Shown here: piece by piece, positions 11,736-13,696 of the stretch
How the letters are laid out: every line of letters starts with the position of its first letter
Numbering within the stretch: the first letter of the stretch is position 1
DNA from: Pseudomonadota bacterium
GTDB lineage: Bacteria > CALINM01
Assembly (NCBI GenBank): GCA_026415985.1
Contig: JAOAGA010000047.1
Coordinates: forward strand, 1 to 13,696
DNA length: 13,696 bases
Direction: 5' to 3'
Translations under genes and position numbers: made by a program
The notes under the pieces: model-generated
Told to the model about the DNA's origin: nothing
What the model saw: only the letters and a program-made list of their open reading frames with translations
The model's database searches: none

Positions 11736-11967
11736 ATATTTTTATATACCAAAATATTTTGAAAAATACAATTAATAAATATTGTGTTGATTAGTGAATA
11801 CAGGTCAGTTTCCGCTGATAAAATCCATAAGATAAATTTTTTTTGAAAATTATTAAGCAAAAATTATCGATATTGTCTATGGTTTTGACTTTTTGAATAG
11901 ATATAATCAATTTGACTTTAGATTCAATATTTGATGAAAATTATTAAAAAAAATTTCTGGAGGAGTC
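11736..11967. other. Divergent intergenic region between yajQ and the rhodanese gene
   Basis: This 232-base AT-rich stretch has no reading frame with coding character. It holds the candidate yajQ promoter on the left. On the right are two copies of TTTGACTTT (11884-11892 and 11911-11919) flanking a TATAAT at 11902-11907, but no properly spaced -35/-10 pair for the plus-strand operon could be assigned. No RNA gene or riboswitch fold is recognised. Confidence 0.5.
11743..11771 (-). promoter_or_regulatory. Candidate near-leaderless yajQ promoter containing a palindrome
   Basis: On the minus strand TTGTAT (11771-11766, 4/6) and TATATA (11748-11743, 4/6) are 17 bases apart. The start would fall at about 11736, adjacent to the yajQ ATG, which fits the missing ribosome binding site. 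The spacer contains the perfect 12-base palindrome CAAAATATTTTG (11750-11761). In such AT-rich DNA both elements could be chance. Confidence 0.35.
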
Positions 11968-12384
11968 GTGAAAAAAATACTTATCTTGTTCTTTTGTCTA
12001 TTTGTTTTTAAATCCTTTGGTTTTGCCGAGAGTTATAATTTTATCAAACCAGAAGAGCTAAAAAGATTAATCGAGTCAGGGAAAAGGATTCACCTTATTG
12101 ATGTTCAGAAGGAGGGTGATTTTGTAAAAAAACATATAAAAGGTTCTGTTCAGACTGATGCCTATCCCGTAAAAAGTGATGAAGATAAAAGAAAGCTTGA
12201 TTATGTAGCTGAAAAGATTAAGAATGATAACTTAGATGTTGTGATTGTATGTCCGAGAGGAGGTGGTGCTGCGAAAAATACATACAGTTATCTGAAAGAG
12301 AAGGGGATAGCTGAAAAAAGATTATATATCCTTGAGGGTGGTATTCAAGGTTTTTCCTATGAAGAGGTCTGTGTAAAAAAATAG
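11968..12384 (+). CDS. Exported rhodanese-like domain protein
   Basis: Single-domain rhodanese-like protein of 138 residues with an N-terminal signal peptide (KK, then a hydrophobic core to about 18, probable cleavage after FGFA at 20), so probably periplasmic. The domain shows IHLIDVQKEGDFVKKHIKGS (41-60) and the active-site loop CPRGGGA with Cys95, the predicted sulfur (or selenium) carrying residue, then RLYILEGGIQGF. The loop lacks the canonical CRxGxR, so its acceptor may be unusual. The start is GTG at 11968 with a near-perfect GGAGGAG ribosome binding site; no ATG fits better. Its TAG stop abuts the ATG of the glycosyltransferase, so it is the first gene of an apparent arsenosugar-type operon. 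Its exact role there is unknown. Confidence 0.85.
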   Translation: MKKILILFFCLFVFKSFGFAESYNFIKPEELKRLIESGKRIHLIDVQKEGDFVKKHIKGSVQTDAYPVKSDEDKRKLDYVAEKIKNDNLDVVIVCPRGGGAAKNTYSYLKEKGIAEKRLYILEGGIQGFSYEEVCVKK

Positions 12385-13056
12385 ATGGAACTTTCTGTAG
12401 TAATTCCAACATATAATGAGGCATCATTCATTGAGAAATGTATTGATTCATTAAAAAATATAGAGCCACAGGAGATACTGGTAATAGATGGTGGTAGTTT
12501 AGATAATACAGTAGCTATAGCTACCTTAAAAGGTGCAAGAGTTATCGAGAGTGAAAGAGGGCGTGGCAAACAGATAAAAAAAGGGGTTGAAGAAGCAAAG
12601 GGAGATATAATTCTTATCATTCATGCCGATGCATATTTGTCAAATGATATAACGAAAGAAGATTTCAGACTCTATGAAGGCTTTTGTGCCGGTTTTTTCA
12701 GACTTAAGTATGACAGCAATTTGATAACAATCAAGCTCGTCGAGTTTTTTGCTAATTTAAGGTCTATATTACACTCATTGCCATATGGTGATCAGGCAAT
12801 TTTTGTTAAAAAAGAAGCTCTTGAAAGGATAGGGGGTATAAAAGATTATCCGTTTTTAGAAGACATTGATCTTGTTTTAAGGTTAAGAGAAGTTGGTAGA
12901 TTAAAGGCTGTTCCAAAAAGTGTGTTGGTTTCCTCAAGAAAGCTATTGAGAGGAGGTTTTTTATACCCAATCTTTCATAGTTTCAAAAACTTTATTATAG
13001 TAATACTCTTTTTTCTTGGATTTTCTCCTGATAAGCTTATTAAATTTTACAGATAG
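12385..13056 (+). CDS. TIGR04283-type family 2 glycosyltransferase (arsenosugar locus)
   Basis: GT-A fold glycosyltransferase of 223 residues, a usual length. Visible are the N-terminal nucleotide-binding strand LSVVIPTYNEASFIEKCI (3-20), VIDGGSLDNT (33-42), the clade-specific ERGRGKQIKKGVEEAKGD (57-74), the metal-binding HAD (80-82, DxD equivalent), LPYGDQAIFVKKE (132-144) and the acceptor-side FLEDIDLVLRLRE (157-169). RGRGKQ, HAD and YGDQ are the signature of the family first named 'rSAM/selenodomain-associated transferase 2' and now annotated as an arsenosugar biosynthesis glycosyltransferase. The C-terminal segment (about 192-215) is hydrophobic and may contact the membrane. It starts directly after the rhodanese stop without its own ribosome binding site and is 8 bases from the methyltransferase. 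The sugar donor and acceptor are not known from sequence. Confidence 0.88.
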   Translation: MELSVVIPTYNEASFIEKCIDSLKNIEPQEILVIDGGSLDNTVAIATLKGARVIESERGRGKQIKKGVEEAKGDIILIIHADAYLSNDITKEDFRLYEGFCAGFFRLKYDSNLITIKLVEFFANLRSILHSLPYGDQAIFVKKEALERIGGIKDYPFLEDIDLVLRLREVGRLKAVPKSVLVSSRKLLRGGFLYPIFHSFKNFIIVILFFLGFSPDKLIKFYR

Positions 13057-13064
13057 GAGCTTTT

Positions 13065-13696
13065 ATGGATCAGGAAAGAATGGTTTATGAACGTTATAAA
13101 AGGGCATCGGAGAAAAAAGAGGAATCTCTTTGTTGTCCCACATCTTATAACAGAAAATATTTAGATATAATTCCGGAAGAGATAATAGAAAAGGATTACG
13201 GATGTGGAGATCCCTCCAAATATATTCTTGAAGGAGAAACAGTGCTTGATCTGGGTTCAGGGGGTGGTAAGCTTGTTTATATAATTGCTCAGGTAGTAGG
13301 GAGCCAAGGAAAGGTAATTGGTGTTGATATGAATAAAGATATGATTTCATTGGCAAAAAGGTATGAGAATATTATGACGGAGAGGTTGGGCTATAAAAAT
13401 TTTGAGTTTAAAAGGGGAAGAATTCAGAACCTGAAACTTGATCTGGATAAATTAGATACATTTTTGAAGAAAAAACCTGTCTTTAATGTTGAAGATTATT
13501 TATCTCTCGATTTTGCCATTAAAGAGATGGAGGATGAATCTCCTTTAGTACCTGACAATGATATAGACGTGGTCGTTTCCAATTGTGTTTTAAATCTTGT
13601 CAGAGATGATGAAAAATTAGACCTTTTTAAAGAGATTTTCAGAGTTTTGAAAAAAGACGGCAGGGCTATTATCAGCGATATTGTCTCTGATAAAGA
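13065..13696 (+). CDS. ArsM-like arsenite S-adenosylmethionine methyltransferase, 3' end missing
   Basis: Frame open for 210 codons to the right edge; AGGAG lies 5 bases before the ATG. Class I SAM methyltransferase: motif I VLDLGSGGGKL (60-70), acidic end of strand 2 at VIGVDMN (84-90), and the post-motif FRVLKKDGRAIISDI (192-206). Two arsenic-ligand positions of ArsM are present: Cys47 in KDYGCGDPSKY (YGCGNP in ArsM) and Cys174 in VVSNCVLNLV (ISNCVINL in ArsM). An extra SLCCPTSY at 21-28 gives a vicinal Cys pair. About 40 residues (127-165) are inserted between the GRIQNL strand and the SNC motif, a feature I associate with the subgroup beside radical SAM ArsS. The third ArsM cysteine would lie beyond the window. 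Probably methylates trivalent arsenic as a step to arsenosugars; simple detoxification is the alternative. Confidence 0.85.
   Translation, partial: MDQERMVYERYKRASEKKEESLCCPTSYNRKYLDIIPEEIIEKDYGCGDPSKYILEGETVLDLGSGGGKLVYIIAQVVGSQGKVIGVDMNKDMISLAKRYENIMTERLGYKNFEFKRGRIQNLKLDLDKLDTFLKKKPVFNVEDYLSLDFAIKEMEDESPLVPDNDIDVVVSNCVLNLVRDDEKLDLFKEIFRVLKKDGRAIISDIVSDK

Follow-up and report, generated by a model that had tools for sequence, protein, structure and literature searches.

Glycosyltransferases of the TIGR04283 family and ArsM methyltransferases are known partners in loci annotated for arsenosugar synthesis together with the radical SAM protein ArsS, and to our knowledge the accessory genes of these loci have no proven roles. 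The heterodisulfide reductase-like clusters of sulfur oxidisers combine CCG-type Fe/S domains with rhodanese and TusA-DsrE proteins, and two CCG motifs are the signature of HdrB-type noncubane clusters, which act on disulfides. Known organoarsenic synthesis forms its C-As bonds through methylation by ArsM and radical SAM adenosylation (PMC12159101), and rhodanese-TusA-DsrE sulfur trafficking clusters of sulfur oxidisers are described in PMC4175335. The locus presented here is strongly identified as an arsenosugar-type operon and is set apart by its conserved exported rhodanese and, as judged from relatives, by an ArsM-ArsS fusion and a CCG-VTT protein replacing the flavoprotein; a literature search on ArsM-ArsS fusions or rhodaneses in arsenosugar loci, with subscription papers mostly outside its reach, found nothing.

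The window (the whole stretch of 13,696 nucleotides analyzed) spans contig C103 in full, within a genome assembly (G000) of 1.57 Mb in 161 contigs that is 84% complete, and the third gene of the operon is therefore cut at its 3' end. Three open reading frames at 11968-13696 of the forward strand encode a rhodanese, a glycosyltransferase, and a methyltransferase, separated by 0 and 8 bases (Table 1), lying exactly where the original prediction had placed a coupled three-gene unit. A sigma-70 promoter scan returned 9 sites compared to 8.4 expected, which is not above chance. Neither the remainder of the cut methyltransferase gene nor ArsS was found on the other contigs of this incomplete assembly.

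Table 1. Positions of the operon genes, candidate translation signals, and key residues in the window.
Feature	Position	Strand	Basis
Shine-Dalgarno-like GGAGGAG ahead of the rhodanese GTG	11959..11965	+	Sequence
Exported single-domain rhodanese, 138 aa, GTG start, the operon's first gene within the window	11968..12384	+	PF00581, fold, conservation before the glycosyltransferase
Signal-peptide-like N-terminus, rhodanese residues 1-20, MKKILILFFCLFVFKSFGFA	11968..12027	+	Sequence, by eye; homologues
Rhodanese active-site loop, Cys95 in CPRGGGAA	12250..12273	+	Invariance in homologues
Second, C-terminal Cys135 of the rhodanese	12370..12372	+	Conservation confined to the window's family
TIGR04283 family glycosyltransferase, 223 aa	12385..13056	+	196.7 bits, cut-off 182, full length
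GGAG ribosome-binding-like site ahead of the methyltransferase start	13056..13059	+	Sequence
5' part of ArsM gene, 210 aa, 3' open, cut by the contig end	13065..13696	+	NCBIfam, PDB, sister genomes
Cys47 codon, aligned with As-binding Cys72 of algal ArsM	13203..13205	+	Alignment
Cys174 codon, aligned with As-binding Cys174 of algal ArsM	13584..13586	+	Alignment

The glycosyltransferase exceeded the curated cut-off of the family to which it had been assigned, a family that may owe its name "arsenosugar glycosyltransferase" to association. It fell in a 14-row clade (support 100/99) composed only of CCG/VTT-type cassettes, which ties the window to this cassette type without its missing end. The whole locus was identified in two genomes of the same family, G002 (JAOABK010000003.1, locus L037) and G001 (L036), in the order YdjY, rhodanese, glycosyltransferase, a 598-aa protein, and an Fe/S-VTT protein. 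YdjY in the sister locus scored 97 against NF040466 (cut-off 50), and a search for YdjY elsewhere in the window's genome found none. The 598-aa protein joins ArsM and ArsS in one chain, the latter forming the C-terminal half, carrying the radical SAM domain PF04055 and DUF3641 (PF12345), and scoring 309.6 bits in G002 and 336 in G001 against TIGR04167 (cut-off 300). The radical SAM ArsS that the original prediction sought downstream was thus present in both sister genomes, as the C-terminal half of the fused gene rather than as a later gene. The C-terminal Cys/Sec motif foreseen for it was borne out in the Cys form, CTAxxGSSCxG (CTAKRGSSCFG in CYACTAKRGSSCFG), but not in the Sec form, and a TIGR04282/DUF2064 transferase expected nearby was not seen in the window's family. 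Selenocysteine in the ArsS of this family was rejected, the Cys form being free of TGA in both relatives. An in-frame TGA does occur in some of the other ArsS genes surveyed.

The window methyltransferase was 72% identical to its G002 homologue, and its best NCBIfam matches were ArsM models, with NF040538 scoring 239.9 bits on the 210-aa fragment, below a cut-off of 500 that applies to the full length. Arsenic methyltransferases in the PDB also matched and, together with the two aligned cysteines (Table 1), bear out the ArsM-like assignment made from the sequence. Cys72, Cys174, and Cys224, the arsenic-binding residues of algal ArsM, are all kept in the L037 fusion as Cys47, Cys174, and Cys226, the third position lying past the contig end in the window. 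The fused L037 protein scored 306.4 against the NCBIfam ArsM model (cut-off 500), the C-terminal part of its ArsM being replaced by ArsS, and the fusion is predicted to work like ArsM while not being filed under the full-length ArsM models. Its AlphaFold model had two mostly confident domains joined by a weak linker at 280-290 (pLDDT 84, pTM 0.53). Judged from these relatives, the cut gene of the window is likewise predicted to be an ArsM-ArsS fusion. A plain detoxifying arsenite methyltransferase (or one of the arsinothricin type) in a genome lacking ArsS is very unlikely: the best NCBIfam match of the third gene was an ArsM of an arsinothricin cluster and ArsS was not found in an assembly 84% complete, but the contig ends within this gene, its homologue runs into ArsS in both sister genomes, and the glycosyltransferase clade and gene order are the same as theirs. 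Fusions of the two domains occurred in both orders across the survey (L185, L196-L208, L150, L121, and L054), ArsS-ArsM in many genomes and ArsM-ArsS in the window's family and L208 (G576).

The neighbourhoods of 97 ArsS loci were read, and rhodaneses were sought in them with an iterated profile. Ordinary ArsS loci often encoded VTT with a MerA-like flavoprotein, the glycosyltransferase, and DUF2064, and 11 of the 97 encoded a CCG Fe/S domain, in most cases as a fusion with VTT. A rhodanese was present in six of these 11 loci (five of the window type and one TsoB-like) compared to none of the other 86 (Fisher p 5e-7, a guide only, given the relatedness of the loci and the shortness of some contigs). 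All 11 CCG loci fell in one 21-row ArsS clade (99/93) that is also home to most ArsM-ArsS fusions. The CCG protein of L037 contained two CCG motifs, CX30CCX35CX2C and CX28CCX31CX2C, whose cysteines were invariant in seven sequences. YdjY and the rhodanese were both present in L153 and L154, and four other CCG cassettes had YdjY before the glycosyltransferase (adjacent, with a gap in L203) without a window-type rhodanese, which indicates that the rhodanese is replaceable. A second, TsoB-like exported rhodanese was encoded within the cassette at L196:7468-7989 and L218:13112-13621. Each of these TsoB-like genes follows one for a small membrane protein that is MauE/DoxX-like by eye, with a weak BT_3928-family match in L196.

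The rhodanese of the window matched PF00581 (E 1.9e-14), and its AlphaFold model (pLDDT 90) matched rhodanese-fold structures in Foldseek, while a PDB sequence search gave no match. Residues 1-20 consist of KK, a hydrophobic core, and GFA/ES, a type conserved by eye in all operon homologues, and the call of a signal-peptide rhodanese is thereby sustained by the domain match and a typical N-terminal hydrophobic segment. Cys95-Pro-Arg-Gly was invariant across the window's family and the operon homologues, and Cys95 lies in a loop of sulfurtransferase length, consistent with a rhodanese domain. Cys135 was absent from the rhodaneses of L148, L180, L181, and L182. Tests for a seleno-rhodanese were negative, with scores of 21.3 against NF041203 (cut-off 115) and 16.4 against TsoB (cut-off 805) and no in-frame TGA in the window's rhodanese reading frame. 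We know of no biochemistry for this rhodanese. The G001 gene (L036:8358-8360, reverse strand) apparently starts at ATT behind a good ribosome-binding site, with no ATG, GTG, or TTG available ahead of the signal peptide.

The rhodanese-fold protein could alternatively be an Acr2/Cdc25-type arsenate or As(V) reductase, which we hold to be extremely improbable. In its favor, an arsenic operon would call for a way of reducing As(V), and the Foldseek matches of the model included the Leishmania As/Sb reductase 2j6p and Cdc25B, but plain rhodaneses matched the model equally well, and the window protein is exported whereas the Acr2 enzymes known to us are cytosolic. The candidate was rejected on its active site, where the HCX5R motif is missing and V-C95-PRGGGA has no His before the Cys and an Ala where the catalytic Arg is expected.

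A profile built from the three rhodaneses of the family was searched in 386 genomes and matched six at E <= 1e-18. ArsS was present in all five matched genomes besides the window's own compared to 66 of 386 overall (hypergeometric p ~1e-4 with phylogeny ignored). The best match outside the family was G263, where 0.7 kb separates the rhodanese from ArsS and the genes run ArsS, YedF, rhodanese, glycosyltransferase, CCG/VTT, and DUF2064; its phylum, another one than the window's, was sampled with 295 genomes and gave seven rhodanese matches. The rhodanese was encoded in the cassette directly before the glycosyltransferase in G263, G497, G530, and G643, and those of G659 and G663 stood alone and had no active-site Cys. 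In G416 (L185:2750-3242), only a remnant of the rhodanese is left, its start being joined to the end of the VTT gene, as if a deletion (or misassembly) had removed the rhodanese end, the glycosyltransferase, and CCG.

Adjacency of the rhodanese and the glycosyltransferase, in this order, was thus observed in the window, L153, L154, L148, L180, L181, and L182 within differing gene orders, and the co-occurrence proposed at the outset held in three of three family members and four genomes of another phylum. The placement of the rhodanese at the operon head was true of the window but not of two relatives, in which it comes second after YdjY. Rather than a chance neighbour, the rhodanese is a conserved component of cassettes of this type. 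The active-site Cys has been lost (HAPGK) in close homologues that lie outside ars loci (L183:8816-9244 and L184:8965-9408). In L163-L166 (G246 and G373), paralogues with a CFGG loop were found, lying near stand-alone CCG proteins in L164 and L166 and away from ArsS, and a rhodanese-CCG pairing therefore exists without arsenic genes. A bystander role, as a general periplasmic thiosulfate/cyanide sulfurtransferase sharing the promoter by chance, would accord with rhodaneses being common and promiscuous, with the related proteins outside ars loci (L163-L166, L183, and L184), and with the four YdjY cassettes without a window-type rhodanese. It is nevertheless quite improbable, as the adjacency has survived gene rearrangements in seven genomes from two phyla, the rhodanese was confined to CCG-type ArsS loci (6/11 vs. 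0/86), and a second rhodanese type was found in the same cassette elsewhere.

Several relatives encoded YedF in the operon (196, above a cut-off of 110), a TusA-DsrE protein whose occurrence among bacteria follows that of SelD (PMC5322559), and the CCG part resembled NF045663, whose model name diclust_near_Sec points to Sec genes. SelD over the cut-off with an in-frame TGA was identified in the window's genome and, of five further rhodanese genomes tested, in four. The TGA lies near the start of the window genome's SelD gene at L186:5301-6209, and the organism therefore probably uses selenocysteine. The selD gene adjoins YedF/YdjY/CCG(/VTT) genes in L222, L224, and L226, away from ArsS, and a selD remnant is located between the TsoB-like rhodanese and YedF at L218:12551-13107. 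Organoarsenic and selenium/sulfur metabolism may be genetically connected, as the neighbouring YedF and selD genes suggest. A putative chalcogen step, as originally predicted for the rhodanese, gained backing from the gene company of YedF, selD, and CCG, which does not separate sulfur from selenium.

ArsS was absent from G643, G510, and G667, which kept the glycosyltransferase and CCG/VTT with a BioB-like radical SAM protein, and two of the three also kept YedF and a rhodanese. The BioB-like genes (weak BioB and HydE matches) are located in or near the cassette at L182:6912-7958 (-), L218:9940-11013 (-), and L217:6996-8006 (+). With a BioB-like enzyme replacing ArsS in three genomes, the cassette may not be arsenic-only and may serve more than arsenic. 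A broader interpretation is that the cassette (YedF, rhodanese or YdjY, glycosyltransferase, CCG/VTT, and DUF2064) would primarily be a selenium/sulfane-sulfur system making a chalcogen-containing metabolite, its radical SAM slot filled by ArsS or a BioB-like enzyme and arsenic being only one substrate or mis-assigned. This replacement, the YedF in the operon with its tracking of SelD (PMC5322559), and the selD genes beside CCG, YedF, and YdjY in L222, L224, and L226 with the remnant in L218 favor such a system. It is, however, unlikely, since the window's family fuses an ArsM with conserved As-binding cysteines to an ArsS over the cut-off, fitting arsenic chemistry, and its locus is without a selenium gene, with the selD of G000 and G002 located elsewhere.

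The reading we favor, and consider moderately probable, is that a variant arsenosugar-type operon, of which the window holds the 5' end, works in five proposed steps. Trivalent arsenic would be methylated by the ArsM domain (step 1), and the fused ArsS domain, past the contig end, would join a 5'-deoxyadenosyl group to the methylated arsenic (step 2), placing both C-As bond-forming steps on one polypeptide; as methylation and adenosylation both form C-As bonds, the fusion is a plausible case of channelling. The sugar part would then be processed by the glycosyltransferase, and DUF2064 where present (step 3). These three steps would follow from family membership. In step 4, the CCG Fe/S-VTT fusion would take the place of the MerA-like flavoprotein and VTT of ordinary ArsS loci, and since the CCG domain stands where a flavin disulfide reductase stands elsewhere, the protein would probably serve at the membrane as a redox partner for thiol/disulfide or persulfide chemistry, as judged from domain content and gene replacement. 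In step 5, the exported rhodanese may act outside the cytoplasm as a carrier, binding sulfane sulfur (or selenium) on Cys95 and exchanging it with an arsenical, YdjY-type Cys-rich proteins, or the CCG-VTT protein, and a putative thiolation of an exported trivalent arsenical by the rhodanese is chemically attractive. Against this explanation, a periplasmic rhodanese and a cytoplasmic ArsM-ArsS would need a shared, exported substrate, and ArsS lies neither in the window nor elsewhere in the incomplete assembly. A bolder extension, distinctly unlikely in our estimate, is a selenium/sulfane-sulfur relay (exported rhodanese or YdjY, YedF, and CCG-VTT) built into a radical SAM sugar pathway, with C-As formation by ArsM-ArsS and chalcogen transfer on one molecule giving thio-/seleno-organoarsenicals and the BioB-like enzyme carrying out a parallel C-S/C-Se reaction in ArsS-free genomes.

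Comparison with described systems places the favored arsenosugar-type operon near the known arsenosugar loci (e.g., L039: ArsM-ArsS-VTT/MerA-glycosyltransferase-DUF2064), with which it has the ArsM, ArsS, and glycosyltransferase families and a nearby VTT domain in common. It differs from them in that ArsM and ArsS are fused, a CCG Fe/S domain replaces the MerA-like flavoprotein, an exported rhodanese and/or YdjY stands directly before the glycosyltransferase, and the ArsS of the sister genomes belongs to a separate clade (99/93). The rhodanese-TusA-DsrE/Hdr-like clusters share with it the rhodanese, a TusA-DsrE protein (YedF in relatives), and a CCG-type Fe/S domain, whereas here a single CCG/VTT membrane fusion was found with no Hdr complex seen, and the rhodanese is exported and linked to ArsS. 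MnmH (SelU), NF041203, and TsoB have the rhodanese fold in common with the window protein, which matches MnmH and NF041203 weakly; in contrast to them, it lies far below all family cut-offs and has neither Sec nor a tRNA-modifying partner domain. The E. coli ydjXYZ-ynjABCDE gene run shares VTT proteins (YdjX and YdjZ), YdjY (111 bits against the YdjY profile), and the exported rhodanese-family YnjE but encodes an ABC transporter and YnjA and no ArsM, ArsS, glycosyltransferase, or CCG protein, and YnjE (435 aa) was not matched by the window rhodanese profile. In K-12 (L216, ydjX to ynjE), the YdjY/VTT/YnjE set echoes the YdjY/rhodanese/VTT of the operon, and we know of no function for the ydjXYZ-ynjE run. 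The exchange of a MerA-like flavoprotein for an HdrB-type Fe/S domain alongside the rhodanese or YdjY gives a testable handle on the roles of these partners, and the same set of YdjY, VTT, and a rhodanese-family protein in E. coli offers a laboratory entry point.
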